Origin: a virus
Length of the DNA: 24,276 bases
Direction: 5' to 3' (one strand)
IMG/VR virus record: IMGVR_UViG_3300022602_000417
Coordinates: 1 to 24,276 of that record
Shown here piece by piece: positions 1,456 to 24,100 of this stretch. The first letter of the stretch is position 1. The number at the start of each line of letters is the position of its first letter. The notes under the pieces are model-generated. The model was not told the origin of the DNA. It saw only the letters and a list, made by a program, of their open reading frames with translations, and did no database searches. Made by a program: the position numbers and the translations under genes.

Positions 1456-4400
1456 ATGGCACAACTCGAATATTACGATGAATCATCAGGTCAGTGGATA
1501 ACAGCGGTTGTAGGTTCGCAAGGACCGCAAGGCGAACGTGGCTTTCAAGGTTTCCAAGGATTTCAAGGTGTACAAGGCACAACTGGTGCAACGGGCAATC
1601 AAGGAACGCAAGGTTCTACTGGTGCTCAGGGTTATCAGGGTTCTCAAGGAACTGTTGGTGCGCAAGGCAATCAAGGAACGCAAGGGTACCAGGGTCCACA
1701 AGGCAATCAAGGTTATCAAGGCATGCCTTCAACCGTTCAAGGTCCACAAGGAAACCAAGGGTTTCAAGGTGATACTGGACCTCAGGGCTCAACCGGAACA
1801 ACCGGTGCTCAGGGAACACAGGGTGTACAAGGAACGCAAGGCGTTCAAGGCAATCAAGGTTTTCAAGGTTACCAGGGAAACACGGGTTCTCAAGGTTCAC
1901 AAGGAACTCAAGGCGTCACAGGGGCACAAGGACAACAGGGATACCAAGGACAGACCGGTTCCCAAGGTTCCACCGGTTCTCAAGGCAATCAAGGCTTCCA
2001 GGGCAATCAGGGTTTTCAAGGAGAAACAGGTGCACAAGGTACAACTGGTTCACAAGGAACACAGGGCTATCAAGGCAATCAGGGTTTCCAAGGCAATCAA
2101 GGATATCAAGGTGTTCAAGGTTCTACTGGACCTCAAGGTGCAACAGGCTCGCAAGGATATCAAGGCAACCAAGGTAATCAAGGCAACCAGGGTAACCAAG
2201 GTTTTCAAGGCAATCAAGGGTATCAAGGAAACCAAGGCTTCCAAGGAACACAGGGTTATCAAGGTTTTCAGGGTCGTGCAAGCACAAACAACGCTCACAA
2301 CGCAGTAGCAGTTGCCGATACATTCGGTACAACTAACGCATCTACATACACCGCCGGTTCAACAGACCTTAACGGCGGTACTGGTATTGGTGCAAAACTT
2401 ACTGCCACCTCTTATGGCGCACTTGTAATTGATGGTCACACGGTGGCCTCAAACGAACGCGTACTTGTTGCCGCCAACACTAACGCTAAATACAATGGTA
2501 TTTATCAACTAAGCACTTTAGGAACGGGAAGTGTTTATTGGGTTCTTACCCGCGCTACCGACTATGACGACAGCGTAATCTCTGACGTTAACCAAGGTGA
2601 CTATGTTTTAGTCATTTACGGTTCTGCCAACATTGGTAAAACGTACATGGAAACAGAACTTGGTTCTTATTCCGACGGCTCCATTATTATTGGAACCGAC
2701 AACATTCTTTTTGCACAAGTTTCTGGTCAGGGTGCTCAGGGTTATCAGGGTGCTCAAGGTGCCGGTGGCGCTCAAGGATACTACGGTTCTTTCTGGGACA
2801 CCACAACGCAAAGTGCTTCTGCAACAAATACAAAGTACGACATTACTCTTAACAGCAAGGGTGACAGAAGTGGCGTAGACGTTTCCTCGGGTTCGCACAT
2901 TGTTATTGCAAACCCAGGTGTGTACAACGTACAGTTTTCTGCGCAACTTAAACGCAATTCTGGTGGTACCGGAAACGCTATTATTTGGATTAACCAAAAT
3001 GGTACAGACATTGCGGCATCAGCCGGTGACGTTCAACTAACAGGTAACAACTACGCAATTATTCAATCGTGGAATTACCTAATTACTACCACAACTGCTA
3101 ATGAGTACGTAAAATTTGTTTGGTTAACAGATGACACTGCTATTCAAATAGTTAATATTGCTGCCGGTTCACAGGCGCCAGCAGCGCCTTCAATGATTGT
3201 TACTGTACAGCAAGTTATGTACACTCAGGTCGGCCCACAGGGTTACCAAGGAACAACTGGTTCACAGGGTGCCACAGGTTCACAAGGTTCACAAGGTACG
3301 CAAGGTTTAACTGGGGCACAGGGTTCACAGGGATACCAGGGCACACAGGGCGTACAGGGTTCAACGGGTTCGCAGGGTTCTACTGGCGCACAGGGCTCAC
3401 AGGGCTCACAGGGCGTACAGGGAGCAACGGGAAGTCAAGGTTTACAAGGTTACCAGGGAAATACAGGTGCTCAGGGTTCAACGGGTGCTCAAGGTAGCAC
3501 CGGAGCACAGGGAAGCACGGGTGCTCAAGGCTCAACTGGGGCACAGGGACCTCAAGGATATCAGGGTTCTACTGGTACGCAGGGCTCTACTGGTTCGCAG
3601 GGAGCGCAAGGCGCCACAGGTGCACAAGGAAATCAAGGTGTACAAGGCTCGCAAGGTAATCAAGGTTATCAAGGAACGCAGGGCTATCAAGGCAACCAAG
3701 CAAGCGTTGCACTTGGAACAACCTCGACGGTTTCATATTCAACCGGAGCATCAGTTACAAATACAGGTACGCAAGGTGCTGCTGTATTTAATTTTAGTCT
3801 TCCTCAGGGTCCACAAGGTAATCAAGGAAATCAGGGTTTTCAAGGGACGCAGGGAAATCAAGGCACTCAAGGCTCTACTGGTCCTCAAGGAACACAAGGA
3901 AACCAAGGTTCAACCGGAGCACAAGGAAGTCAGGGTTCGCAGGGTTCTACTGGTTCACAAGGCTCACAGGGTTCAAACGGAACGCAAGGCCCTCAAGGTT
4001 ATCAGGGATATCAATCAGGCATTACCATTGGTACAACAACAACCGTTGCTTACACAAGCAGCGCTGCTGTAACCAACTCTGGTTCTCAAGGTGCGGCGAC
4101 ACTTAACTTTAGTATTCCACAGGGCCCTCAAGGCGCAACCGGTTCTCAAGGTTCACAAGGTAATCAAGGTACGCAAGGAAATCAGGGAACATCGGCGTCA
4201 ACAACAAACGTTCTTCTTAATGCACCTTTTGAATCTGTAAGCGTTTCTAATACAGCACTTAGTGGTTCAACTGCCGCAACGCTTGCGGCTGGAACAACTT
4301 CGTTTTTTATGTACACGGCCAATCCAACGGCTTCGTACGCCATCAATATGACTGGTTGCCCAACAACTTCCGGCCAATCGGTTACGTTTGCCATGGTAGT

Positions 4401-4632
4401 TATTAACGGTTCTACGGCCTACCTGCCTTCAAGCATTTCGGTTAACGGTGTTGCTGCGGCGGCGTCTGGAATACCTGCAACCAATACTACGTACAATAAC
4501 ATTACTTTTTGGTGGCAAGGTGGCACAGCCCCAACTGCCGCTAACGTTTCTACTGGAGATTCATACACATTTACAGTAGTGTGTACAGGTTCAAGTACCT
4601 GGACGGTAATTGCAAGTCAGGTAAAGTTCTAA
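1456..4632 (+). CDS. Large collagen-like tail fibre protein with four non-collagenous domains
   Basis: A 1058-residue protein; ATG follows an AAGGAAA ribosome site 10 nt after the preceding stop. Domain order: short N-terminal head (about 20 residues), long Gly-X-Gln/Thr shaft (to about base 2275), a globular domain (about 2276-2725) with the [16 protein letters not shown] and NGIYQL motifs common in phage fibres, a jelly-roll-like segment (about 2785-3225, [10 protein letters not shown]) resembling C1q/TNF-type trimer domains, more collagen, then two homologous ~40-residue modules (about 3700-3810 and 4015-4125) each ending in NFS(L/I)PQGPQG. It ends with the same C-terminal domain as the upstream fibre. 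It probably forms part of the distal tail and adhesin. Fold assignments are from pattern recognition only. No transmembrane or signal sequence is visible. Confidence 0.88.
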
Positions 4633-6510: not shown

Positions 6511-6752
6511 AAAGAAATAAAGAACCTCAGAACGTAGAGATTGCTCGTCAAATAAATTTACGCAAAAACAAAGCAGACAAATACAAATGGGTACCGTGCA
6601 TTGTATGCGGTGACTTATGTCCTCAGGGGCAACCAGGCTTTGAAGATTGCGATGAAGTTCATGTTACCTGTAAGTACGAACCAGGTTATTCTGCTCTTGC
6701 TAAAAAATTATTAAAGCAAAAAGCAGAAGCATTAAACACTTCTTTATTCTAG
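6507..6752 (+). CDS. Small putative zinc-binding protein
   Basis: An 81-residue protein. I choose GTG 6507, which overlaps the upstream TGA (GTGA), instead of the ATG at 6471 inside the phosphoesterase gene. The N-terminus is basic (KRNKEPQNVEIARQINLRKNK), followed by a cysteine cluster VPCIVCGDLC and later DCDEVHVTC (about residues 32-57), consistent with a zinc ribbon. The C-terminus is a short helix (YSALAKKLLKQKAEAL). It was probably co-translated with the phosphoesterase. Its 3' end overlaps by 9 bases the convergent whiB gene. Confidence 0.7.
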   Translation: MKRNKEPQNVEIARQINLRKNKADKYKWVPCIVCGDLCPQGQPGFEDCDEVHVTCKYEPGYSALAKKLLKQKAEALNTSLF

Positions 6753-7067
6753 TTCTGGAGTTATTTCCAGCCACGCGTCGTGAACCGTCACGTCGTTCTG
6801 TATCCATCTTGCCCTCTGTTCTGGAGTTGAGCCTCCCCAAACTCCATGTTCTATTTTATTATCAATGGCGTACTCATGGCATTCGTATTGCACTGGGCAA
6901 TAGAGGCACATTTCAACAGCCTTTTTAATTTTTGACGATTGACCTCGCCCAGGAAAAAATTCTTTTGTGTTTGAATTACGACACAACGCAAGCCAATAAA
7001 AATTAGGTCTTGATTCTTCAAGGACTCTAATGAACTCTAGGATTTCGTAGTCGGAATATTTAAACAT
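6744..7067 (-). CDS. whiB-like: WhiB-family Fe-S transcription regulator
   Basis: A 107-residue protein with the full WhiB signature: Cys29, Cys54, Cys57 and Cys63 (C-x24-C-x2-C-x5-C), FFPG after the first Cys, and GVWGG at 75-79 followed by a basic TPEQRARW helix. WhiB proteins carry a [4Fe-4S] cluster, contact the primary sigma factor and are essentially limited to Actinobacteria and their phages, so this is the best host indicator in the window. I choose ATG 7067 because it overlaps the stop of the small upstream gene; a GTG at 7121 in the same frame would add 18 residues but has a poor ribosome site. It probably redirects host transcription during infection, as the phage WhiB of TM4 does. 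Confidence 0.9.
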   Translation of the reverse strand: MFKYSDYEILEFIRVLEESRPNFYWLALCRNSNTKEFFPGRGQSSKIKKAVEMCLYCPVQYECHEYAIDNKIEHGVWGGSTPEQRARWIQNDVTVHDAWLEITPELE

Positions 7068-7233
7068 CTCGCTCTGCCGACATATCCGCAAGGTGTTGAT
7101 AGGCAGATGATATTGCTTCACTTCTTTTGGGAACTAAAACCTTCCAAGAACATGTGCATTTGACTTCATATTTTTCTTTATTAAAAATAAAGTCAACGTA
7201 ATGGTGTTCTACGTTTATTCTTCCCAAGACCAT
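7060..7233 (-). CDS. 57-residue Cys-containing microprotein
   Basis: An open frame from ATG 7233 to TAA 7060, overlapping the 3' end of the HNH gene by 19 bases and the start of whiB by 8. GAGGA lies 9 nt upstream. The product contains KCTCSWKVLVP (CxC followed by Trp) and SEAISSAYQHLADM, the shape of the small CxC-W...A...H proteins common in actinophages (possible metal-binding microdomain). It fills the whole gap between HNH and whiB, and both overlaps are typical of coupled phage genes, so I believe it is real. Function unknown. Confidence 0.7.
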   Translation of the reverse strand: MVLGRINVEHHYVDFIFNKEKYEVKCTCSWKVLVPKRSEAISSAYQHLADMSAERDV

Positions 7234-7765: not shown

Positions 7766-8146
7766 TCACCCTCCTGCTTCTCGGTAGGAAGCCATAAGGC
7801 TCCTCAGGGCCTCTACACGGCTACGAACCGATAAGAGTGCTTGGCGTGTTGCATCATGCTTTGCCTTGGCTGCTTCCATTGCAAGTCGTTCGGTTTCCGT
7901 CTCGGTTGTTGCAAGGTCAGATGCCATGTCGGCGGTTATCTTTAATCCATTATGACTTCCCTCATACCGAGCCGACAAACGACTCTTGGCATAAGCGATT
8001 TCATAAGTTGCTTCTGCTCTACCAAACTCGTCCGCCGTTACAGCGAATGAAGATGTAAGGTCTTCCATTTGATTCATGGCGTGACGCATTGTTTCTTCAA
8101 TACGCATGTAACTAAGCGGGACAGAGTAATTGGTTTTTTCAGACAT
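7766..8146 (-). CDS. Helical protein of the recombination operon, unknown function
   Basis: A 126-residue protein; its ATG overlaps the SSB stop (TAATG). The sequence is nearly all helix, rich in Ala, Glu and Arg, with a long amphipathic stretch from about residue 40 (FGRAEATYEIAYAKSRLSAR) and another from about 85 (MEAAKAKHDATRQALLSVR). Small helical proteins at this position beside ssb in phage recombination operons may be recombinase or SSB accessory factors; I cannot name the family. Confidence 0.75.
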   Translation of the reverse strand: MSEKTNYSVPLSYMRIEETMRHAMNQMEDLTSSFAVTADEFGRAEATYEIAYAKSRLSARYEGSHNGLKITADMASDLATTETETERLAMEAAKAKHDATRQALLSVRSRVEALRSLMASYREAGG

Positions 8147-8538
8147 TAAAAGTCTTCTTCATCCCATGGGTTGGTACCTGCTGGCGCAGATGAAGTTCCC
8201 TTTTCGTTCTTTTGAATTGAGACTGTTGCAAACTTAAGCAAAGCGCCAACATCTTCAGCAACAATTTCTGCTGCTGTTCCCTTGGTTCCATCCTTGCGTT
8301 CAAAGTCTTTAACCTCAAGACGACCGCTAATGATTGCAGCAGCACCCTTTGCAAGTGATGCGTGTACGTTTTCTGCGGTCTTTCCAAAAGCAATAACGTC
8401 GTAATAACTTGTTGTTTCACGTTCCTTAACACGGCGAGTAGATGCAAGCCCAAATCGAACTCGTGCTAGGCCATTGTCCCCGAACTTTAACTCAGGCTCA
8501 CGGGTAAGGTTTCCGGTAACGGTAATAATTGAATTCAC
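8146..8538 (-). CDS. ssb: Single-stranded DNA-binding protein
   Basis: A 130-residue OB-fold SSB: the N-terminus MNSIITVTGNLTREPEL is the classical SSB opening, followed by RFGLASTRR, YYDVIAFGKTAENV and AAIISGRLEVKDFERKDG. A short disordered linker (Ser/Ala/Pro/Gly) leads to the acidic tip PWDEEDF, the conserved C-terminal peptide that recruits recombination and replication partners. It is shorter than most bacterial SSBs, as is usual in phages. It is followed by a 1-base overlapping helper gene and preceded by the ERF annealing protein, so it probably coats single strands produced by the phage exonuclease. CTCCTAA on the + strand gives TTAGGAG as ribosome site. Confidence 0.92.
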   Translation of the reverse strand: MNSIITVTGNLTREPELKFGDNGLARVRFGLASTRRVKERETTSYYDVIAFGKTAENVHASLAKGAAAIISGRLEVKDFERKDGTKGTAAEIVAEDVGALLKFATVSIQKNEKGTSSAPAGTNPWDEEDF

Positions 8539-8546
8539 TTTATCTC

Positions 8547-9230
8547 CTAATTGCTTTGTAGTGATTGTAGGTGTTCGATGACAGACTTCGCTTCGTCAAA
8601 AGTAAGTTGCTCCAACTTCGGAACTCTCCTACCTGTAACGTTATCAATAGTGTCATACATTGTTGGGTCATCAAAGCCCAGCGAACTGTGACTAATAGCC
8701 CAAATCATTTTGCACATCTTCTCGGTTGCCATGTTGGTTGTTGGCTTACCAGCCGCTTTAGCAACTGCGTTGCCGAGAGTGTTGTCCTGCTTAGGTGTAG
8801 GCGCTGACTTAGGTTCTGGCTTAATAGCCTGACCAGTTGAAAGTGGACTTGCAGTAACTGCATCGTCATCCTCATCCGCAACAAGCCCCAAGCATGCCAT
8901 GTAGGCATAACGACGAGCGAACGTTGTAGCACTGCCCTGCGCCATTGGGTCTGCCTTAACCATGTGTAACTTCATTGCGTAAGCCATGTACTGACCTGAA
9001 GTGTGGAGTAGATGCGTCATAAGCAAGTCTCCAGTTTCGTCGTAAGTAATGAACTGACTAACAGCAAGTCCATGCTTAGCAAGTACAGGACCAGCAGTAG
9101 CAACTACTTCTGGCAACGCCGCATACCTACTCTTAAAAAACGGATTAACAGAACCCTTGGGCACAGCAGAAAATTCTGCCTGAGCCGCAACGAGTGCCGT
9201 AATTAATTCATTGATTGATTCACTCTGCAT
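8547..9230 (-). CDS. erf: ERF-family single-strand annealing protein
   Basis: A 227-residue protein. The N-terminal ~130 residues have the ERF hallmarks: INELITALVAAQAEF, then NPFFKSRYAALPEVV, VLAKHGLAVSQF, and QGSATTFARRYAYMACLGL followed by the acidic VADEDDDA. A variable linker rich in Pro/Lys/Ser comes next, then a C-terminal helical tail with MATEKMCKMIWAISHSSLGF. ERF proteins anneal complementary strands (P22 Erf) for recombination or genome circularisation. It is first gene from the 9276 promoter, with AAAGGAAATAAATA before ATG. Together with the YqaJ exonuclease upstream and SSB downstream it makes a complete annealing pathway. Confidence 0.9.
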   Translation of the reverse strand: MQSESINELITALVAAQAEFSAVPKGSVNPFFKSRYAALPEVVATAGPVLAKHGLAVSQFITYDETGDLLMTHLLHTSGQYMAYAMKLHMVKADPMAQGSATTFARRYAYMACLGLVADEDDDAVTASPLSTGQAIKPEPKSAPTPKQDNTLGNAVAKAAGKPTTNMATEKMCKMIWAISHSSLGFDDPTMYDTIDNVTGRRVPKLEQLTFDEAKSVIEHLQSLQSN

Positions 9231-9253
9231 TATTTATTTCCTTTCACAATAGT

Positions 9254-9269
9254 AGTCTTCTTTAAGACT
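9254..9269 (-). promoter_or_regulatory. 5'-terminal hairpin of the ERF mRNA
   Basis: Perfect inverted repeat AGTCTT-(4 nt)-AAGACT beginning where transcription from the 9276-9304 promoter is expected to start. It would form a stem at the extreme 5' end of the mRNA (protective cap) or, as DNA, an operator. Confidence 0.5.
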
Positions 9270-9275
9270 GGTACA

Positions 9276-9304
9276 AGTGTAACACACTTATTTGATTTTG
9301 TCAA
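9276..9304 (-). promoter_or_regulatory. Promoter of the ERF-SSB-HNH-WhiB operon
   Basis: On the minus strand TTGACA (9304-9299), 17 bp, TACACT (9281-9276). The sequence after the -35 (AAAT) and before the -10 (GTGTGT) matches the promoters at 22694, 23583 and 24150. An inverted repeat AAGTGT-gtt-ACACTT overlaps the -10 and could be an operator. Confidence 0.75.
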
Positions 9305-9309
9305 GTTCA

Positions 9310-10332
9310 TTATTTTAACGGTCGTAAAGTTCTTGAACCGGGGCGAGTCTTCTTAAATTGTTCAAAAATCTCAGGAGCCTCTGCCTTAAGTCGCTCGGTG
9401 TCAAGTGTCTCAACATCCTTGCTTGCCTTGTAAGAAAGAATAGCCTTGCCATTTACGGTAGCAAACTCTGCATTGCCTACAATTTCAAGAATCTTTGCTC
9501 GCAATGCTTTGCGTTGAGTATCTGCTTCGTCCGCACGGGCTTTTGCTTCTGTAAATTCATCCCAAATAGCCTGCAAATCAGAACCACCTTCAACGCCTTT
9601 GCCTTCTTCGTGGCGAGGGTAACGTTTTTGCTGTGCTGATTCAGTTGCATCACTACCGTCAGTTTCTGGAGCGTTACCAAATTTAATGCAATCCCAAAAC
9701 TGTTGCTCTGCAATGACCATGTTCTCTGCAATTTCATCATCCCATTGCATTTCACGAACCTGAAGTCCAGCACCGCCGAGTAGACACGCAAAAGTTATAT
9801 TGGTATAACCAGTTACAACACCGTAGTGATATCCCTGAAGCATGTAACTTGGTGGAACTTGATTGTTTGCCCATGCGCCAGGATTTCCTGGACCAGCAAT
9901 ACCGGCGGTCTTAACCTCAAGAATACCCAAGATGTTTGGTGGTGCGTAATCAAAACGCCAAGTTTGTACTTTGCCAGCAGGAAACTCATCACTTGGTTCA
10001 ACAATCAAGAAGTCAAGGTTCGCAAACATAAACTCACGACCTTCTTCTTCTGACCACAAAATAACAGGCCATTCAACAACGGCTTTATTATTTTCTTCGG
10101 CGTAGAATTCAGCAATAGGACGTTCAAACTTATGTCCAATGCGGATGGCTTCGCCAACCACAGGGTCACGTTCTACAATGTGAGACTTCTCAGCCCACAA
10201 GGCGTAAGCAGACTTGTACCTATTAACACCGCAAACAGTACCGGCATCACTGCCACCAATACCACCTTCACGAGCCTCAAGCCAGTCTTCCTCTGACATA
10301 TCCCATACTGGGATTACTTTTACTTTATTCAT
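9310..10332 (-). CDS. YqaJ-type viral recombinase / lambda-exonuclease-like nuclease
   Basis: A 340-residue protein. The N-terminal half has the YqaJ fold: WLEAREGGIGGSDAG (17-31), a helix with Glu70, FANLDFLI with Asp107, ILEVKTA with Glu139 and Lys141 (the E-x-K of the PD-(D/E)XK site), and PPSYMLQGYHY with Gln166. The C-terminal third is a charged helical region (about 235-310) ending in an Arg-rich KKTRPGSRTLRPLK. This is the 5'-3' exonuclease partner of annealing proteins such as ERF. Its ATG overlaps the stop of the 10329 gene by 4 bases. It is last in the recA operon, with the ERF promoter immediately after its stop. Confidence 0.88.
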   Translation of the reverse strand: MNKVKVIPVWDMSEEDWLEAREGGIGGSDAGTVCGVNRYKSAYALWAEKSHIVERDPVVGEAIRIGHKFERPIAEFYAEENNKAVVEWPVILWSEEEGREFMFANLDFLIVEPSDEFPAGKVQTWRFDYAPPNILGILEVKTAGIAGPGNPGAWANNQVPPSYMLQGYHYGVVTGYTNITFACLLGGAGLQVREMQWDDEIAENMVIAEQQFWDCIKFGNAPETDGSDATESAQQKRYPRHEEGKGVEGGSDLQAIWDEFTEAKARADEADTQRKALRAKILEIVGNAEFATVNGKAILSYKASKDVETLDTERLKAEAPEIFEQFKKTRPGSRTLRPLK

Positions 10333-10724
10333 TGAACACTCTCCTTTTGAAGTTCCCTGATGGTTTGACGAACTGCATCAGCCACCATTGACTTAATCAT
10401 TTCTTGATATTCGTCAACGGTATCAATAGGGTGTGACACCAACTCTTCAATAGAAGCAACATCAACGTTGTTTCCAATGTATCGAACATAGACGCGGTGG
10501 ATAATCTTTCGACCGACCATCTCCCGACCATGCTTTCGCTCAAATTCTGGACCACGAAGTGATGTTGGAACAGAACCAACTTTGTCACCTTCATAAATGA
10601 CAGCCCATTGACCCGGCTTCTCTTTGAGACGTGTTGCATACGTCTTTTTACGATACTTCTTTGTACTCTTTCGAGGAACAGCCGATTTTACTGGCGGTTC
10701 CTCCCACTTCAAATGCTTGCCCAT
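10329..10724 (-). CDS. Conserved small basic protein, paralogue of the 18555 gene
   Basis: A 131-residue protein; AAAGGAAT precedes the ATG. The N-terminus is rich in Lys and Arg (KSTKKYRKKTYATRLK). A central module reads KPGQWAVIYEGDKVGS ... RKIIHRVYVRYIGN, and the same order PGTWFVWKEDSKTGG ... WTIYVRYVGE is found in the gene at 18555-18887. I infer that the two are divergent paralogues with a small beta-fold. The C-terminus is helical (YQEMIKSMVADAVRQTIREL). The position between the LexA-like gene and the exonuclease suggests a recombination or regulatory function, otherwise unknown. Confidence 0.8.
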   Translation of the reverse strand: MGKHLKWEEPPVKSAVPRKSTKKYRKKTYATRLKEKPGQWAVIYEGDKVGSVPTSLRGPEFERKHGREMVGRKIIHRVYVRYIGNNVDVASIEELVSHPIDTVDEYQEMIKSMVADAVRQTIRELQKESVQ

Positions 10725-10749
10725 TTTATTATTCCTTTCTTGTTTGTAT

Positions 10750-10971
10750 TTATTTATTCAATAGTTTTATTGTTCTTGCTACACCATCTTGGAAAGTAAT
10801 TACTTTTGCTTCCCTCAATTGCTGACAAGCACTAAAGACATTTCCTAGGGACATTTCAGTCATCTCCGATAGGTCACGATAACTCGGACCGTAAGCATGC
10901 TTTTTGTACCACTTCTCAATTGCCTTTGTAATTTTCTTTTCGTTATCTAGTTTAGCATTAATTTTCGTCAT
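10750..10971 (-). CDS. LexA-type DNA-binding domain protein without peptidase domain
   Basis: A 73-residue protein; ATG 10971 lies 14 bases inside the recA 3' end (an alternative TTG at 10977 would add two residues). The sequence follows the LexA N-terminal winged helix: [20 protein letters not shown] (Tyr27-Gly-Pro-Ser30, LexA has G-Y-x-P-S), [20 protein letters not shown] as the helix-turn-helix (33-52), then LREAKVITF and a short wing. Full LexA proteins are about 200-230 residues because they add an S24 self-cleavage domain; that domain is absent here, and nothing downstream looks like it. It would therefore bind DNA without being inactivated by RecA. It is translationally coupled to recA, whose promoter carries an SOS box, so autoregulation or occupation of host SOS boxes is a reasonable hypothesis. 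It could also be a general wHTH with no LexA specificity. Confidence 0.72.
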
Positions 10972-11992
10972 TGTCAAGTCCTATTTTAAAATTTTTGTTT
11001 TCCATTGTAGCAATTACCTGATTGTATATAGTTTCATACAATTCTGGTTGTTCTTCTAATTTAGCCTTTGCTTTCAATCTTCCGTTTGCAAACTGCTCGC
11101 CCTCATAGTATATCCAAGCACCGGATTGACGCAAAACACCTGCGTCAATAGCACAATCGAGAAGAGCATTGGCTTTTGGAACACCAACGCCATATTCAAG
11201 GTCAAACTCAGCCTGTTTTAACGGTGGTGCAACTTTGTTTTTTACAACTTTTACTCGGGTTCGGTTAGCGGTTGCTTCTTCACCCTTTTTAATGGTTTGA
11301 ATACGTCGAATGTCTAGTCGAACCGAAGCGTAATAAGGCAATGCCTTACCGCCTGGTGTGTATTCACTTGGCCCATACATCTTTCCAATTGATTCACGCA
11401 ATTGATTAATAAAAATAACCAAAGTATTCGTTCTTGATACGGTTCCTGTCAACTTTCTTAATGCTTGTCCCATCAACCTTGGTTGAAGTCCAACATGGGC
11501 ATCGCCCATTTCTCCTTCAATTTCAGCGCGGGGAACCAAAGCGGCAACAGAGTCAATAACAACTACACCAATTTCACCACTTTCTACAAGGCGAATAGTA
11601 ATCTCCAAACCTTGTTCTGCGGTGTTGGGTTGGCTGATTAGTAGGCTGGGTAGGTCAACCCCAATTACGTCCGCGTAAACGGCATCTAGGGCGTGCTCAG
11701 CGTCAACGTAGGCACATGTCAGTCCCATTTTTTGCGCTTCAGAAATTACGTGAAGAGCAAGGGTGGATTTGCCCGAAGAAGGTGGCCCAAAAAATTCTAC
11801 AATTCTACCCCTAGGAAGACCACCCACACCAAGGGCAAGGTCCAATGGCAAAATACCAGTCGTGATTACATCAACAGGCACTACGTCTGATTGACTCAGG
11901 CTCATAATAGAACCAGCACCAAACTGCTTGTTAATCTCTGCTAAAACTAAGGCTAAGTTGTCCTTACCCTGAGTTACCGCTTTCTTTGCCAT
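10958..11992 (-). CDS. recA: RecA recombinase
   Basis: A 344-residue protein of normal RecA length. I choose ATG 11992, five bases after GGAGG; the frame continues upstream to 12016 but that would put the ribosome site inside the gene. Motifs: AGSIMSL near residue 30, Walker A GPPSSGKS (69-76, where bacterial RecA usually has GPESSGKT), [10 protein letters not shown] with the catalytic Glu, [21 protein letters not shown] (Walker B and L1), [13 protein letters not shown] then [16 protein letters not shown] (L2 region). The C-terminal domain is complete and ends in an acidic tail (DNDEN). It forms the nucleoprotein filament for strand exchange and would promote LexA cleavage. A SOS box inside its promoter predicts damage induction. 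Confidence 0.96.
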
Positions 11993-12026
11993 AAAACCTC
12001 CATTTTCAAATTTCAAATTTCTCTAC

Positions 12027-12093: not shown

Positions 12094-14136
12094 ATGCAAA
12101 ACGTTCCTGCAAACAATTACGCTTGGATTCAAAATAATGTTATTATTTTGAAAACCGAGTATAACAAACAACTTGTTGAGGATAGTCGCAATATTCCGGG
12201 TCGTCGTTGGGATGGGGAGATGAAAGTTAATACTTTCCCTCTTTCTTCCATAATAGAAGTTCGCAATCTTGCTAACACACATAATATCACATTGGCGCCT
12301 GAATTGCAAGACTCAGACGTTAAAAAGTATTTTACTGATTCGGGCAAAGAGTTTCAAGTGGAAATGGACGGGGATTCCGTTACTATCTGCTTTAACTACG
12401 ACCCCAAGATGATTACGGCCATTAAATCTTCTGTTCCTAGCGCAAAATGGAACGGAAAATCTCGTTCTTGGCTAGTTCCTAAACGTGACATTATGCAAGC
12501 GATTCGTTTTGCCCTTTTGCATAACCTCACTATTGAAGACAGCCTTATGGAAACCGCTCGTAATGTAATGAACGAGGCCAAAACCATGCGTGAGGCGTCG
12601 GAATCTTTGAACGCTGACCTTGATGTTCCGGGCATACAAATCCCGCTCCTTCCATACCAAAAAGCCGGAATTGCTTATTTGAAGCAAGTCCGTAAGGGCA
12701 TTTTGGGCGACCAACCGGGACTTGGGAAGACGGCACAAGCCATTGCTACCCTTGCATCGGAAGACGCTTTCCCTGCTGTTGTTGTATGTCCTAATACATT
12801 AAAAATAAATTGGGAGCGGGAAATTAAAAAATTTTTTCCAAATTTGACCGTTTCGATACTCAATGGTGGTAAGTCAGAGGAAATTGAACCCTGTGATGTA
12901 ATTGTTGTTAATTACGATATTTTATATCAACGCAACAAAAACATTATGGAACATGGCTTTGTTTCACTCGTTGTAGACGAATCTCACGCTATTAAAAACG
13001 GGCAGAAGAAGTGGCGATGCCCGGAATGTGAAAAACCGTGCCGAGCAAACACCGCAGTATGCAAAGAATGTGGTGCGTTGGCAATTCGCCCCCGAGAAAC
13101 TTGGACAGTTAAGCGTACTGACGCCGTTATGAAGTTGGCGAAGTCACTTGGACCTGAGAACTTTGTACTCCTACTAACCGGCACGCCGATTACGAACCGC
13201 CCCGAAGAACTAATTCCCCAACTTGAAGCCATTGGTCAGTTGGACAGTTTCGGTGGCGTTTGGAGATTTAAGAACCGTTACGCACCAAAGCGCAATGTTG
13301 CTCTTAATACCAAAGAACTTAACGAAAAAATGCGTGAAACCTGTTTTGTACGTCGCAACAAAATGGACGTTTATGGAGAACTGCCAGAACTACGAAACGC
13401 CGTGCAATACCTATCAGTTTCTACTGAAGAAATGGCTTCATACAAGGTAGTCGAAGACGACGTTGTTGAGTATTTTGCTCAACGTGCGCGTGATATTGCC
13501 GAAGAAGAAGGCAGTGACGGCTCTAGTGCTTACTGGGGCAAGAAGATTGCTCTTGAAAACTCGGTTAATCTTGTTCGTATTACCGCACTTCGTGATGCGG
13601 TGTCGAAAATCAAGTTTGAAAGCACTGCTTCGTGGTTGGACAACTTCCTAGAGTCCGGTACGGGTGAAAAGGTCATTGTTTTTGCGGAACATATTGAAAT
13701 GGTTGAAAAACTGTATGCTCGGTACCAAGATGTAGCAGTGAAGATTCGTGGCGGAGTTTCAGTCGAAGAACGACAGAATGCAGTGGACTCGTTTCAGAAC
13801 GACCCGAAAGTACGAGTATTTGTAGCAAACATGACAGCCGCTAGTGAGGGTTTAACACTTACAGCCGCAAGTGATGTAGTCTTCTGTGAACTAGGTTGGA
13901 CACCTGCTATACATGAGCAATGTGCCAGCCGTTGTTATGGTCGAGTTAATGACATGCACGGTGCAACAGCATGGTATTTGCTAGCACCTGAGACCATTGA
14001 CGAAGACATGTACAGTCTGTTAGACAAGAAGAAAAAAGTTGTTAACTCCGTTACTGACGGTGTTGACGTTGAGGAACAAGGAAGCATTATTGGCGAACTC
14101 GTCAAAACGCTTGCTGAAAGGGGAATGAGCAAATGA
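12094..14136 (+). CDS. SNF2/SMARCAL1-like DNA helicase with HARP-like repeats and inserted zinc ribbon
   Basis: A 680-residue protein; ATG 12094 is chosen over the in-frame ATG 12049 because the latter lies upstream of the promoter -10. The N-terminus has two related Trp-containing modules (GRRWDGEMKVNTFPL and SAKWNGKSRSWLVP) like HARP repeats of annealing helicases. Helicase core: DQPGLGKTAQ (motif I), VVCPNTLKINWEREI, VVDESHAIKNG (II), then a zinc ribbon insert CPECEKPC...CKECG, LLTGTPITNRP (III), KVIVFAEH (IV), ASEGLTLTAASDVVF (V) and CASRCYGRVND (VI, replacing the usual QaxxRxxRiGQ). SMARCAL1-type enzymes anneal or remodel fork DNA without processive unwinding. Head of the replication operon; it overlaps the next gene by 4 bases. 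Confidence 0.9.
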   Translation: MQNVPANNYAWIQNNVIILKTEYNKQLVEDSRNIPGRRWDGEMKVNTFPLSSIIEVRNLANTHNITLAPELQDSDVKKYFTDSGKEFQVEMDGDSVTICFNYDPKMITAIKSSVPSAKWNGKSRSWLVPKRDIMQAIRFALLHNLTIEDSLMETARNVMNEAKTMREASESLNADLDVPGIQIPLLPYQKAGIAYLKQVRKGILGDQPGLGKTAQAIATLASEDAFPAVVVCPNTLKINWEREIKKFFPNLTVSILNGGKSEEIEPCDVIVVNYDILYQRNKNIMEHGFVSLVVDESHAIKNGQKKWRCPECEKPCRANTAVCKECGALAIRPRETWTVKRTDAVMKLAKSLGPENFVLLLTGTPITNRPEELIPQLEAIGQLDSFGGVWRFKNRYAPKRNVALNTKELNEKMRETCFVRRNKMDVYGELPELRNAVQYLSVSTEEMASYKVVEDDVVEYFAQRARDIAEEEGSDGSSAYWGKKIALENSVNLVRITALRDAVSKIKFESTASWLDNFLESGTGEKVIVFAEHIEMVEKLYARYQDVAVKIRGGVSVEERQNAVDSFQNDPKVRVFVANMTAASEGLTLTAASDVVFCELGWTPAIHEQCASRCYGRVNDMHGATAWYLLAPETIDEDMYSLLDKKKKVVNSVTDGVDVEEQGSIIGELVKTLAERGMSK

Positions 14137-15110
14137 GGGCAGATAGATACGACCATGAGGGCAAAGCGATTTACTCTCTTAAGTTTGATGGCGCAACAAT
14201 TATTGGCGATTTAACTGGAGAAAAGTCTATTATTACGCCTTCGTGGATTTTGGTTCACCCCGACTTAAGTCCATTGGCCAAAGTTCTTTTTGGTTACATG
14301 AAGGCAATTCTTATGGGCGAAGTATTTATTGCCAACACTTCTCACGGTTCATTTGCAAACTTACTTAAGGTTGATGCTCGTACTGTTCGTCGCAAGATTA
14401 AAGAACTAAGCGATGTTGGAGCGATTATTGTTAAAAGTAGTTTTAAGGACAATAAACAACAAACTAATGTCTACTACCTATGGCCTTACAACCCCGAATT
14501 AGGGGGGACAAATTTGTCAGGGGGGACAGAAATGTCCAGGGGGGTGGACACAGATGTCCAGGGGAATAATAATAATAATATATATAATAATATAGTCTCG
14601 CCAAAAGTCGAGGTAAAGAAGACTCGTAAGACTAAAGTTTATACTCCTGAGTTTGAGGCACTATGGCTTTTGTATCCTCGCAAGGAAAACAAGCCGGGAG
14701 CATTTGAGGCTTACAACGGTCGTATCAGAGATGACAAGGTTCCTTACGAAACATTGATGCAAGCAGTAAAGAACTACGCTTTAAAGAGGAAGAACGAAAA
14801 TCCTACGTACACGTTACACCCCAAGACGTTCTTCGGCCCGGGCAGGCGATACGAAGACTATCTTGGCAAACAAGATGATGTTTTCCCACTAACACCAGAG
14901 CAGATTGTTGTTGCTGAGATTTACGAAGACTGGGATAAGTTGAAGACTTGGATTAATCCAGTGGACGGAGAAGTAATACTTGATAATCCTGTCAAGATGA
15001 ACTACAGTCGTCCCACTAACGAAATAGGGCAACCTATTGACATAAACGGCAGGCCTTACAAACTTGACAACCAAGGCCGTCGTCATTCATTAGAATTTAC
15101 CACTTACTAG
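14133..15110 (+). CDS. Replication initiator-like winged-helix protein
   Basis: A 325-residue protein, ATGA overlap with the helicase. The N-terminal region (about 40-120) is a winged-helix domain of the replication-initiator type: SWILVHPDLSPLAKVLFGYM, HGSFANLLKVDARTVRRKIKEL, VGAIIVKSSF. A low-complexity Gly/Asn linker (about 124-150) is encoded by the GC-rich repeats and AT-rich stretch of the probable origin. The C-terminal module (about 168-250) with FEALWLLYPRKENKPGAFEAY and LHPKTFFGPGRRYEDYL is common in phage replisome organisers/DnaT-like proteins and may contact the helicase encoded next. The architecture resembles lambda O: an N-terminal iteron-binding domain, a linker encoded by the origin, and a C-terminal partner domain. 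DNA specificity is inferred. Confidence 0.78.
   Translation: MRADRYDHEGKAIYSLKFDGATIIGDLTGEKSIITPSWILVHPDLSPLAKVLFGYMKAILMGEVFIANTSHGSFANLLKVDARTVRRKIKELSDVGAIIVKSSFKDNKQQTNVYYLWPYNPELGGTNLSGGTEMSRGVDTDVQGNNNNNIYNNIVSPKVEVKKTRKTKVYTPEFEALWLLYPRKENKPGAFEAYNGRIRDDKVPYETLMQAVKNYALKRKNENPTYTLHPKTFFGPGRRYEDYLGKQDDVFPLTPEQIVVAEIYEDWDKLKTWINPVDGEVILDNPVKMNYSRPTNEIGQPIDINGRPYKLDNQGRRHSLEFTTY
14502..14594. other. Probable replication origin: three iterons plus AT-rich unwinding element
   Basis: Three consecutive repeats begin with a run of six G and carry the dyad GGACA-n-TGTCC: 14502-14519, 14520-14538 and 14539-14560 (the first has TTGTCA at its right half; the third carries an extra TGG). A fourth GGGG (14561-14564) is followed by 30 bp of pure A/T (AATAAT repeats then ATATAATAATATA). 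Iterons next to an AT-rich element inside the initiator gene is the lambda-type arrangement. The repeats could instead be purely coding low complexity, but dyad conservation while the amino acids differ argues for DNA function. Confidence 0.65.
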
Positions 15111-15122
15111 AAAGGGTTATTG

Positions 15123-16319
15123 GTGAACGGGCAAACCATACCCCACGATTTTCAGGCAGAAGAGGCATTGATAGGTTCAATGCTTCTGTCTATAGAAGCA
15201 GTTATAGAAGGCATTGATTCTTGTCTTCCCGAGGATTTTTACAATCCTTTGAACGCAAGGATTTTTACCGCTATTCGCAGTCTCTTTTCAAGGGGCGTAA
15301 AGATTGACCCAGTTACAATTGCTGGTGAAATCAACGACGAAGAAGTTGCTTCCAAGTTAGTCAACATGTCTCTAAACGTTCCTTCATGGAAGAACGCTAG
15401 TGAGTACGGTGCAATAGTTCTTAAGCACAGTTCTAGTCGCAAACTCATTGGAGAGATTGATACATACAAGAACTTGTTGTTGACAGGCGAGAACCCGTAC
15501 GAGATTGCATCAGGCATGGGAAAGATGTTGACTGGCGTTGGCTCGATGCGTTCGCTTGAACCACAAGCAATGACTATTAGCCAACTTGTTGCGAATGCGG
15601 AAGCGATTGCACCAGTTGTTATTCCAGGAATGATGCACCAAGATTATCGAACAATTGTTGTTGCAGAAGAAGGTGCTGGTAAGTCGCTTCTACTTAGAAC
15701 GATTGCTATGTCAGTATCGCAAGGCATTCATCCATTCAGTCACAAGCCAATTGAACCTAAGCGTGTATTGATTATTGACCTTGAAAACCCAACGCAAGCA
15801 ATTACCGAAACTGCTGAACCATACATGAGACACATGGCTGGAAGAGTTGGTACTGCTTTTGATGAAGAACGTTTAAAGATTTATCGTCGTCCCGGTGGTA
15901 TTGAGATTCGAAATCTGTCCGACAAGGCAGAAGTACAGCGTGAAATTGCGGCTCATAAACCAGACTTGGTTGTTATTGGTCCTATTTACAAAATGTATCG
16001 CAGGCAACCTAACGAGACATACGAAGACTCTGCTGACTCTGCAATGGCTGTACTTGATGACCTTAGAACGAGATACAAGTTTGCCCTTGTTATGGAGCAT
16101 CACGCGGCTAAGGGTAAGGCTGGAGAACGTGACCTAACGCCAATGGGTTCACAGCGCTGGATGGCGTGGCCTGAAATTGGTATATCATTGTATAAAGACA
16201 AAGTTGATGAAACAATGTTAAATGTAAAACGTTTTCGTGGAGACCGTTTGCAAGGTGTAACATGGCCAGACAGAATTGTTCGCCACCGCACTTTGTTGGT
16301 TGAAGGAATTTGGGACTAA
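15123..16319 (+). CDS. Replicative helicase: DnaB N-domain fused to RepA/RadA-like ATPase
   Basis: A 398-residue protein. GTG 15123 lies 6 nt after AAAGGG; a TTG at 15120 is too close. The N-terminal ~110 residues are a DnaB-type helical domain: AEEALIGSMLLSIEAV, CLPEDFYNPLNARIFTAI and GVKIDPVTIAGEI. The C-terminal RecA-fold ATPase has Walker A AEEGAGKS (181-188), VLIIDLENP (Walker B region), DLVVIGPIYKMYR, and MEHHAAKGK (sensor region). The motor resembles RepA of plasmid RSF1010 or the AAA_25 family more than DnaB, so the protein looks like a DnaB-RepA hybrid often seen in phages without a full-length DnaB. It would be loaded at the origin in the preceding gene. Confidence 0.85.
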   Translation: MNGQTIPHDFQAEEALIGSMLLSIEAVIEGIDSCLPEDFYNPLNARIFTAIRSLFSRGVKIDPVTIAGEINDEEVASKLVNMSLNVPSWKNASEYGAIVLKHSSSRKLIGEIDTYKNLLLTGENPYEIASGMGKMLTGVGSMRSLEPQAMTISQLVANAEAIAPVVIPGMMHQDYRTIVVAEEGAGKSLLLRTIAMSVSQGIHPFSHKPIEPKRVLIIDLENPTQAITETAEPYMRHMAGRVGTAFDEERLKIYRRPGGIEIRNLSDKAEVQREIAAHKPDLVVIGPIYKMYRRQPNETYEDSADSAMAVLDDLRTRYKFALVMEHHAAKGKAGERDLTPMGSQRWMAWPEIGISLYKDKVDETMLNVKRFRGDRLQGVTWPDRIVRHRTLLVEGIWD

Positions 16320-16813
16320 TGACAGTAGTTGTTGCATGTACAAGTGAAAATTGGTGCGGTATGTCATTTGACTCCGCATCAAGCGACGATGACATGGTTC
16401 TAGCCGCCTCAACACCAAAAGCAATTATTCATGCTGGCAACGGCATTATGGGAGCGGCTGGTTCGTGGCGCATTATAAATCTTTTGTCGAAGTTAAAGGC
16501 AAGGAAAGTGAGTCCGGAGACTATTGTTTCTATGCTCAAAGAAGTGAAGGGTGAAGATGAATCCATCAAAGAGATGGAGATTCTTTGCGCTTGGCCCGGT
16601 CGTCCATTAGTCATCATTCAAGGTGACTTTGCGATGATTGAAATGGAGTCGCCGTATTTGGCGATTGGTAGCGGTTCCCCCTATGCCCTCGGTTACTTAG
16701 AAGGTTGCGAAGACATAGGCCCAAACGAACTAAGTTACGCTGTGGAAGTAGCAATTAAATACTCCCCAAGCGTGGCTGGCCCAGTAAAAAATCTTTACTG
16801 TGGGTCGAAGTAG
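16319..16813 (+). CDS. hslV-like: HslV/proteasome-beta-like Ntn peptidase
   Basis: A 164-residue protein. ATG 16319 overlaps the helicase stop by one base (TAATG); an in-frame TTG at 16310 would hide the Thr and is rejected. Removing Met leaves Thr1 (TVVVACTSE). In mature numbering Asp17 (SFDSAS), Lys33 (STPK) and Gly47 (MGAAG) sit exactly where HslV and proteasome beta subunits have Thr1, Asp17, Lys33 and the Gly45-48 loop; LAIGSGSPYALGYLEG (about 113-128) matches the HslV IGSGGPYA segment with Ser117. The length matches HslV (~174). These are self-compartmentalising threonine proteases that need an unfoldase (HslU); no such ATPase lies in the window. The protein may form rings by itself or pair with a host AAA+ ATPase. 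Target unknown. Family call confident, activity inferred. Confidence 0.85.
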   Translation: MTVVVACTSENWCGMSFDSASSDDDMVLAASTPKAIIHAGNGIMGAAGSWRIINLLSKLKARKVSPETIVSMLKEVKGEDESIKEMEILCAWPGRPLVIIQGDFAMIEMESPYLAIGSGSPYALGYLEGCEDIGPNELSYAVEVAIKYSPSVAGPVKNLYCGSK

Positions 16814-16823
16814 AAAAGGTTAA

Positions 16824-17294
16824 ATGAAATATCTTTCTATCGTTCTATTGTCACTTGCTGTATTCAGTGTTAGTTCACCAAATCCCTCGGCGGAAACGGT
16901 ATCAACAAGTACAACAATTGCCGTAGGACAATCATGGAACCCAGCATCACTAACAGCACCACCAGTTGCACCGCCTTCGTTAACGCACATTGATGCGCCA
17001 ACAACGTTGCCAACAATGGTGCCACCACCGCTTGTGTCACCTGACATTATGGATAAGTGGTTAAAGGTTGCTCAATGTGAGACTGGAAGTAATTGGCATT
17101 CAATGGGAGGTGTTTATCAAGGCGGAATAGGTATTCTTGTTTCAAATTGGTACGCCTACGGAGGATTTAAATTGTTCGGACCGTTGTATGATGCAACTCC
17201 AGAACAACAAGTATTTATTGCTATAAAAATACAAGCATTGGCAGGAATACCAAATTATGTTCCCGACCAATACGGTTGTGGACGAGGATGGTAA
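16824..17294 (+). CDS. rpf-like: Secreted Rpf-like transglycosylase
   Basis: A 156-residue protein preceded by AAAAGGTTAA. Residues 1-23 are a Sec signal peptide (KYLSIVLLSLAVFSV, cleavage near PSA-E). A Pro/Thr/Ala-rich linker (about 25-72) leads to a resuscitation-promoting-factor domain: KWLKVAQCETGSNWHS with Glu86 as catalytic acid, GGVYQGGIGILVSNWYAYGG, ATPEQQVFIAIKI and a final GCGRGW. Cys85 and Cys152 match the disulfide pair of Rpf domains. Rpf proteins are lysozyme/lytic-transglycosylase-like enzymes of Actinobacteria that cleave peptidoglycan and wake dormant cells. In the phage it could be a secreted lysin/cell-wall remodeller or stimulate host growth. It lies among replication genes, not with a recognisable holin. 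Confidence 0.82.
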   Translation: MKYLSIVLLSLAVFSVSSPNPSAETVSTSTTIAVGQSWNPASLTAPPVAPPSLTHIDAPTTLPTMVPPPLVSPDIMDKWLKVAQCETGSNWHSMGGVYQGGIGILVSNWYAYGGFKLFGPLYDATPEQQVFIAIKIQALAGIPNYVPDQYGCGRGW

Positions 17295-23614: not shown

Positions 23615-24100
23615 CTAAAAGTGAAAATCTACTGCTACTAAGTATTGCTCGGTAGGATTTTTTTCTATACGTTTTTTGAGGTACTCATCACCAGCACCAC
23701 CATCAACCATGTCGTAAAAATAACCGTACGGGTTACTGTCCCCATTTGCTATTTCTAATGCTTTCCCAAGTCGCCAAGCCTGCATACCATCTTGGTCGTT
23801 AAAAGCAAGTTCTTCGCCGTTGTAATTTTTTAGCAAACTCGTAACATGCTCAACATCTACCTTCGCAAGGTAACTATTGACTTGTTCAACTCGCCATTGC
23901 CTTGCCGTTTCAACGGCTTCCAAAAACTTTTCAGGGGTTTCTGAATAACTGATAACGGTATCTTCTTCACCCCAACGACCACCAACTACTGACCAGTCTG
24001 ACCAATTGAAATTACCACTTTCTTCAATGTATTCATTAACAAGGTCTTTCGCTTCTTGGGCGTTTTCTGCCTCTACTGCAATTCTGTGTAAAACATGCAT
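23615..24100 (-). CDS. Unrecognised 161-residue protein with VVGGRW motif
   Basis: ATG 24100 follows GAAAGGAAC. It starts MHVLHRIAVEAENAQEAKDL, then NWSDWSVVGGRWGEEDTV (about 31-50), a helical middle and FNDQDGMQAWRLGKALEI. Proteins carrying a W-x-x-V-G-G-R-W segment near the N-terminus are common in phage early regions and have no assigned function I know of. It is a monocistronic unit between the 24150 promoter and the 23583 promoter. Confidence 0.8.
   Translation of the reverse strand: MHVLHRIAVEAENAQEAKDLVNEYIEESGNFNWSDWSVVGGRWGEEDTVISYSETPEKFLEAVETARQWRVEQVNSYLAKVDVEHVTSLLKNYNGEELAFNDQDGMQAWRLGKALEIANGDSNPYGYFYDMVDGGAGDEYLKKRIEKNPTEQYLVAVDFHF

Follow-up and report, generated by a model that had tools for sequence, protein, structure and literature searches.

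What is a peptidase of the proteasome kind doing in the replication cluster of a phage, so close behind a helicase gene that the two overlap? The question is raised by an IMG/VR virus record (IMGVR_UViG_3300022602_000417), whose 24,276 bases are the window analyzed here. An open reading frame at 16319-16813 (+) encodes a protein of 164 amino acids, beginning MTVVVACTSENWCGMSFDSAS, that is, Met followed by Thr. This protein is almost certainly a proteasome-like N-terminal-nucleophile (Ntn) peptidase. The answer begins with what the protein is and goes on to what surrounds it, before coming to what it might do.

Identity and active site of the peptidase

The helicase stop codon TAA (16317-16319) has its last A in common with the ATG of the peptidase, giving the junction TAATG. 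Is this ATG the true start? The question can be put to the window clade, by which I mean 41 IMG/VR loci at the top of a list of the best 80 of 100 relatives, with 25 distinct sequences among them as judged by their first 480 bases. At every one of the 41, the ATG is followed by a codon for Thr or Ser. In-frame starts further upstream are never common to them all (the nearest lies 1 to 15 codons away and is absent in 7), and the comparison rules out a TTG at 16310, upstream of the ATG in the window. Since ATG with Thr or Ser is constant and no upstream start is shared, the Thr at residue 2 is sound, as a preliminary description made from the sequence had it.

The same description had pointed to Thr1, Asp17, Lys33, Gly47 and a segment IGSGSPYA, in mature numbering (the Thr counted as 1). 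All are in the translation, and the Asp, the Lys and the Gly do not vary within the clade (Table 1). Ser18 is presumably a proteasome beta subunit position as well, and a Gly at exactly 47 matches, I take it, the numbering of that subunit. Thr1, Asp17, Lys33 and Gly47 are listed as beta subunit positions in the 2021 survey of proteasome homologs by Fuchs, Alva and Lupas (PMC8665760).

The profile of PHROG 1040, named 'peptidase HslV family', matches residues 1-161 of the window protein with an E value of 1.2e-16, and it matches 10 of the 10 relatives tried. A profile built from 11 clade sequences finds HslV first in the PDB (1.4e-6). The predicted fold agrees. One good model of five came from a first AlphaFold2 run (85.7, 61.9, 55.0, 41.5, 37.4), while in a second run, with a wider alignment of 33 sequences, all five models agree (predicted local distance difference test, pLDDT, 86.0 to 88.9; predicted template modelling score, pTM, 0.85). 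The best models of both runs match HslV, the beta-proteobacterial proteasome homolog (BPH) and proteasome beta across 150 to 163 residues. BPH 5ovt is the top Foldseek match of both (1.6e-10 for the first, 3.1e-11 for the second). The VIA Z score to ClpQ is 19.1 for the first model and 19.0, across 158 residues, for the second, which scores 18.3 to BPH 5ovt; both models score about 18 to 19 to 20S proteasome beta. The alignment to most of the proteasome beta chains opens by pairing model residue 2 with mature residue 1, the site of the nucleophile. Helices at 50-57, 66-74 and 80-84 precede a strand at 87-91, and two more, 120-128 and 135-148, sit where ring-packing helices lie (mapped by eye). 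The earlier assignment to the proteasome/HslV superfamily of Ntn hydrolases is upheld by these profile and fold matches.

The gene is under purifying selection and strongly constrained. Among five pairs of relatives the ratio of nonsynonymous to synonymous change (dN/dS) runs from 0.055 to 0.20, and for the window gene against ten relatives the corresponding pN/pS runs from 0.12 to 0.41. The constraint on the active site is visible over a wider set of 54 relatives, four of whose rows are bacterial HslV with the propeptide cut and a Met substituted, so that only their Thr counts. All 54 have Thr or Ser as residue 2 and a Lys no more than one column from position 33; at position 17, 53 have Asp and the other has Glu. 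The GSG loop is looser than the catalytic residues, reading GAG at two clade loci (Table 1) and GCG in three AAH-like rows. From these residues I predict with considerable confidence that the peptidase is catalytically competent.

Removal of Met by aminopeptidase depends on residue 2. The limitation of that residue to Thr and Ser, with nothing else in the clade, fits removal of Met by a host aminopeptidase together with a putative role as nucleophile. The survey gives the triad as Thr1/Ser1, Asp17, Lys33 (PMC8665760). The clade members with Ser are L027, L028, L029, L065, L066 and L067. Outside the clade Ser occurs in L153 and L154, which are more distant, and also in L062 and L078. Two trees bear on their history, one of 52 proteins (without L014 and L053) and one of 54 (without L009, L014, L018, L053 and L062, which were near-copies or, in one case, a very long branch). 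The four close Ser-type rows sampled form one group in the first (99/94), and the branching order of the Ser type is unsettled in the second. Since the grouping differs between trees, there may have been one or more switches between Thr and Ser.

Placement among phage and bacterial relatives

Is the protein then HslV, as it had been called at the outset? The name does not hold. Against the NCBIfam HslV equivalog TIGR03692 the protein scores 18.1 bits, about 140 short of the cut-off of 157.75, and against NF003964 it scores 17.4 bits where 137 is the cut-off. A branch parts the window clade from four bacterial HslV and four core PHROG 1040 proteins, with support of 98/97 in the 52-protein tree and 100/99 in the 54-protein tree. 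The 15 rows of the window clade form a single group (100/100) in the former; in the latter, a group of 18 that takes in five more distant helicase-linked rows has support of 76/84 only. Because of long branches, the exact position in the tree is unsure. Comparison of profiles places the DSL-LC01 type nearest (6.6e-19), then core PHROG 1040 (1.6e-12), then the AAH stand-in (1.9e-10) and last HslV (8.9e-8). Judged by these comparisons, the family is proteasome-like and not HslV proper.

What sets each of these neighbors apart? The DSL-LC01 type, represented by protein WJZ48484.1 of Actinomycetia phage DSL-LC01 and by IMG/VR loci such as L069, shares Met-Thr, Asp17, Lys33, Gly47 and the GSG loop with the window protein, and the sole named phage in the set infects an actinobacterium. 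It differs in a longer stretch from the first helix to the GSG loop and stands on its own branch, and no relative of the window helicase was found in the DNA of 19 IMG/VR loci of this type or similarly distant. HslV (ClpQ) is like the window protein in fold, Thr1/Asp17/Lys33, GSG loop and length; it has Gly at the place of the window protein's Ser18 and falls apart from it in the trees, and no HslU was found in 13 records, which may be fragments. BPH (5ovt/5ovs), the best match by Foldseek, is 17 to 21% identical to the window protein and is likewise without a known unfoldase; its pore loop differs in being longer and acidic (PMC8665760). The PHROG 1040 proteins (phages phAPEC8, PAc, 4L372XY and VnaP) are also borne by phages, have Thr1 and the GSG loop, and match by profile over nearly the whole length. 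The four used differ in their size of 230 to 288 amino acids, with a C-terminal extension, and in the supported branch already described.

There remain AAH, PPH and CPH, Group I proteasome homologs that occur in phages and have no known AAA+ partner (PMC8665760). PPH is set apart by its description, about 140 amino acids without helix H2, whereas the window protein has 164 and has helices in that stretch (H2 identified by eye). AAH was represented by a stand-in of Rhizobium, Mesorhizobium, Streptomyces and Bacillus plasmid and phage proteins, chosen by taxonomy, not name; these form a separate clade in the 52-protein tree and lie on the same 96/94 branch as the window group in the 54-protein tree. 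In connectase two helices are inserted between strands S3 and S4; the window model, which has no helix before residue 50, lacks them.

The preliminary description had also considered a stand-alone copy in a phage unusual. It is not. With the Aeromonas phage PAc protein as query, 178 INPHARED records match at E <=0.01, 18 of them across at least 80% of that protein (a phage present in both GenBank and RefSeq counts twice), and several of the matches listed bear the name 'peptidase HslV family'. With L069 as query, the matches include Actinomycetia phage DSL-LC01, Arthrobacter phages Pitbull and Hum25, and Microbacterium phage Pumpernickel, their proteins annotated 'ATP-dependent protease subunit' or 'protease'. 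The gene is gp77 in Pitbull and gp81 in Hum25, phages grown on A. globiformis B-2979, and in neither does it adjoin the helicase; in Pumpernickel, grown on M. paraoxydans NRRL B-14843, it is gp135. The window protein itself gives two weak matches by tblastn against INPHARED. The Ser-type L029 matches 21 records at E <=1 (best 4e-6), and the Ser-type L065 none at E <=0.1. DNA of the window from 10000 to 24000 matches no phage record. BFVD holds 42 viral models that match at E <=0.001, one of them under the name of HslV from an uncultured phage, another from Gordonia phage Daredevil.

Phage proteasome homologs are thus a kind already on record. The 22 proteasome homologs new in the survey of 2021 include PPH, AAH and CPH, which have members in phages; the survey identified neither a co-occurring AAA+ partner nor a genomic context suggestive of function, and found no phage specific to Actinobacteria with AAH (PMC8665760). 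HslV genes without HslU are described in a paper on a Salmonella jumbo phage (PMC7823757), the only one that the open-licence full text gave for a phage-encoded proteasome and HslV together, and a proteasome-like gene is listed in one on an Alteromonas phage (PMC7289586). In the open-licence literature, 'peptidase HslV family' appears with phage in one phage paper (PMC11841896), and searches of the same full texts for an actinophage HslV, for an HslV-like phage proteasome and on freshwater and actinobacterial phages found no paper.

The helicase junction and its surroundings

The peptidase gene lies where it had first been placed, in a phage replication cluster, behind a DnaB-like helicase that is itself preceded by an initiation protein (Table 1). 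At 40 of the 41 clade loci the end of the helicase gene falls within a narrow range, from 4 bases inside the peptidase gene to 15 bases ahead of its start, and the two overlap at 33. The remaining locus, L065, has an HNH-like open reading frame between them, which overlaps the start of the peptidase gene by 4 bases. That reading frame (L065 9327-10004, +) contains an HNH-like unit, C-x2-C...DFDHVRG...CANCH, twice over; it possibly encodes a free-standing homing endonuclease.

Table 1. Features of the peptidase gene and its neighbors in the window
Feature	Position	Strand	Remarks
Proteasome-like (HslV-like) N-terminal-nucleophile peptidase	16319..16813	+	164 amino acids; Met-Thr start; no propeptide apart from Met
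Predicted nucleophile Thr1 codon (residue 2)	16322..16324	+	Thr 35/41, Ser 6/41 clade loci
Asp17 codon (residue 18)	16370..16372	+	Asp in 41/41 clade loci
Lys33 codon (residue 34)	16418..16420	+	Lys in 41/41 clade loci
Gly47 codon (residue 48), oxyanion-hole position	16460..16462	+	Gly in 41/41 clade loci; role from PMC8665760
IGSGSPYA segment, residues 116-123, GSG loop as in HslV	16664..16687	+	GAG in L065 and L066
DnaB-like replicative helicase (DnaB N-terminal domain and AAA_25 ATPase)	15120..16319	+	Stop and peptidase ATG overlap by one base
Replication initiation protein, upstream in same module	14133..15110	+	phrog_270, 5.7e-34
Transglycosylase-like protein, directly downstream	16824..17294	+	Context; partnership not implied

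A search that began from the helicase gave 66 loci, largely on the same contigs, and the peptidase was sought within 900 bases downstream. With helicase identity of at least 55%, it is present at all 44 loci with enough DNA (3 were cut). At 44-54% identity it is present at 3 of 6 (1 cut), and below 44% at none of 12. As an aside, more diverged proteasome-like genes stand behind the same helicase family at L161, L162, L167, L168 and L153. At the GSG loop position of the alignment, L162 and L168 read GAA, L153 reads GAG, and L167 is without the second Gly.

Might an unfoldase be encoded by the phage? HslU/Clp-type ATPase domains PF07724 and PF10431 each occur in 0 of 13 records, most of them possibly fragments, in keeping with the preliminary description, which had noted no HslU-type ATPase in view. 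PF00004 matches in all 12 records other than that of the window, above the cut-off in 4. The matches of G001 and the first of G002 lie in the RecA gene, by hand arithmetic on coordinates. G006 has a second weak match (17.4 bits) in a frame of 154 amino acids. In G002, G003 and G007 an AAA match lies in a frame of about 260 amino acids; the AAA proteins of G002 and G003 (251 and 260 amino acids) are followed by a protein of 480 or 518 with the motif DLSGSMS. These are presumably a MoxR-type ATPase and a VWA protein. The MoxR-like AAA protein was rejected as a general partner, no such match above the cut-off being listed among the other nine records. An AAA gene and then one for a DLSGSMS-motif protein lie at L010 (16937-19298, +) and L014 (16395-18718, +).

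The host is probably an actinobacterium, given a WhiB-like gene in the window and the relatives of the helicase in actinophages. WhiB is not known outside actinobacteria and their phages, and the window encodes a WhiB-like transcription factor at 6744-7121 (-; PF02467, 1.7e-17). Phages of Arthrobacter and Gordonia encode the best relatives of the helicase, about 28 to 32% identical to it; 204 of the 310 records it matches are Mycobacterium phages, and Streptococcus and Vibrio phages match too. In DSL-LC01 a WhiB gene stands beside the HslV-like gene. The HslV cell for Actinobacteria is empty in Table 1 of PMC8665760, and so a host HslU is an unlikely partner. A scan of contigs for host relatives gave five distant matches, bacterial HslV in L058-L061 and a proteasome-like protein with Ser1 in L062, and none of the five is a host or prophage of the window clade.

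Elsewhere in the window, genes for SSB, an ERF-type annealing protein, a RecE-like exonuclease and a RecA/UvsX-like recombinase occupy 8146-12016 (-), in the direction opposite to the replication genes. Two long proteins (459-1445 and 1456-4632, +) consist mostly of collagen-like G-x-Q repeats, as seen by eye, and are probably tail fibres or decoration proteins. An apparent second copy of the peptidase, a reading frame of 161 amino acids at 23615-24100 (-), was judged a chance resemblance. The likeness (E 3.2e-5 and 17.8 bits in one small record; 39.7 bits and E 1e-6 by BLAST among 423 proteins) is confined to one short matching stretch, and the protein has relatives of its own and a Met-His start. 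PADLOC has no defence or counter-defence match for the window peptidase, two of its relatives or three other window proteins.

What the peptidase might do

I propose that the peptidase is free of any propeptide beyond its Met, which a host methionine aminopeptidase would take off, exposing the amino group of Thr or Ser. Subunits would form a ring or double ring like that of HslV or BPH, with the active sites inside, where Lys33 and Asp17 would activate Thr1 and Gly47 would help to hold the oxyanion. The enzyme would work on unfolded or short-lived proteins, whether of phage replication or of the host, during replication of the genome, perhaps with host chaperones or an AAA+ protein of the housekeeping kind to feed it. 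Work without a dedicated unfoldase is the most likely course because the gene belongs to one overlapping series with the replication genes and the records show no phage unfoldase. The parts of this proposal differ in strength. That the peptidase forms a ring is reasonably probable; a role in the replication phase is tentative, and I lean somewhat away from it; the proposal taken whole hangs evenly in the balance. A bolder version would couple the ring to the replisome. By docking on the hexamer of the DnaB-like helicase or clearing helicase or initiator from DNA, it would time the passage from replication to packaging, the change from Thr to Ser tuning its speed in some lineages. This I regard as a long shot. 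By analogy only, knock-down of mitochondrial HslVU in Trypanosoma brucei is reported to lead to over-replication of minicircle DNA (PMC2277460).

Could the host supply the unfoldase? The ring might dock on an actinobacterial AAA+ protein (Mpa/ARC, ClpX or ClpC), redirected to substrates of the phage's choosing. The absence of an HslU-type unfoldase from the 13 records speaks for this, as does the probable host, for in Actinobacteria HslV is unmarked (PMC8665760) and other AAA+ proteins would be needed; the survey, however, found no AAA+ partners co-occurring with such homologs. On balance I think docking unlikely. It is also rather unlikely that there is no ring at all and that a monomer or small oligomer cuts or ligates a single protein, in the manner of connectase, which the survey describes as a monomeric, specific ligase of the superfamily (PMC8665760). 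Strong constraint and a single conserved neighbor, the helicase, would suit such an enzyme, but the two-helix insertion of connectase is not visible in the model, and helices (120-128 and 135-148, by eye) are present at the place of ring packing.

The other two alternatives are far less probable. A true HslV, gained horizontally from a host and acting with host HslU, would account for the name of PHROG 1040 and for HslV as the first PDB match of the clade profile. It is largely refuted already by the shortfall against the equivalog, the supported branch away from HslV, the closer profiles of other phage proteins, and the lack of a mark for HslV in Actinobacteria (PMC8665760). A dead remnant or structural protein that keeps only the fold has a precedent in the alpha subunits of the proteasome, which use the fold without catalysis (PMC8665760), yet Asp17, Lys33 and Gly47 are invariant at the 41 loci and the only substitute for Thr at residue 2 is Ser, itself a possible nucleophile. 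I give this almost no credence.

Several observations tell against the proposal of a proteasome-like peptidase with a part in replication. The window protein falls under the gathering cut-off of Pfam PF00227 (12.4 of 22.4 bits), and membership of the superfamily rests instead on fold, residues and profile matches; at E <=1, PF00227 finds 7 of 11 clade members, the best at 0.01. The single window sequence reaches an E value of 0.013 by phmmer against the PDB. Toward the C-terminus, inspection by eye finds no evident side-chain counterparts of proteasome Asp166 and Ser169. Of the 54 wide-set rows, 46 have Gly at position 47 and the other eight, all of the AAH stand-in group, have Ser or Thr, so that the active-site pattern as aligned is not universal at every residue. 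An unfoldase may be encoded elsewhere in the genome, since the records are mostly perhaps fragments. As for the helicase, 47 of the 62 loci with enough DNA have the peptidase and 15 do not, as a stop-to-stop search confirmed for the 15; the helicase can therefore do without it. The order from RecA to the putative terminase small subunit is widely kept, including in L156 and L160, which have no peptidase, and the place of the peptidase beside the helicase may reflect general synteny only.

Adjacency as proof of function was rejected on these grounds, L156 and L160 keeping the order of the module without the peptidase and L157 its upstream half. In L160 a transglycosylase-like gene follows shortly after the helicase. 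Since the whole module keeps its order, adjacency suggests co-expression and leaves interaction unproven. The peptidase is a stable yet dispensable part of the replication module.

What, then, does the locus mean for phage proteasomes? The finding is real and sound, and of moderate interest, the kind being already on record. In 2021 the phage proteasome homologs received names but no function. New in the window branch is the repeated, mostly overlapping junction with a helicase, which offers the context that the survey was without (PMC8665760); both the branch and its steady place in a replication cluster have been little explored so far. Together, this junction, a natural contrast between Thr and Ser as nucleophile and relatives in named, isolated actinophages make the function of a phage proteasome directly testable.

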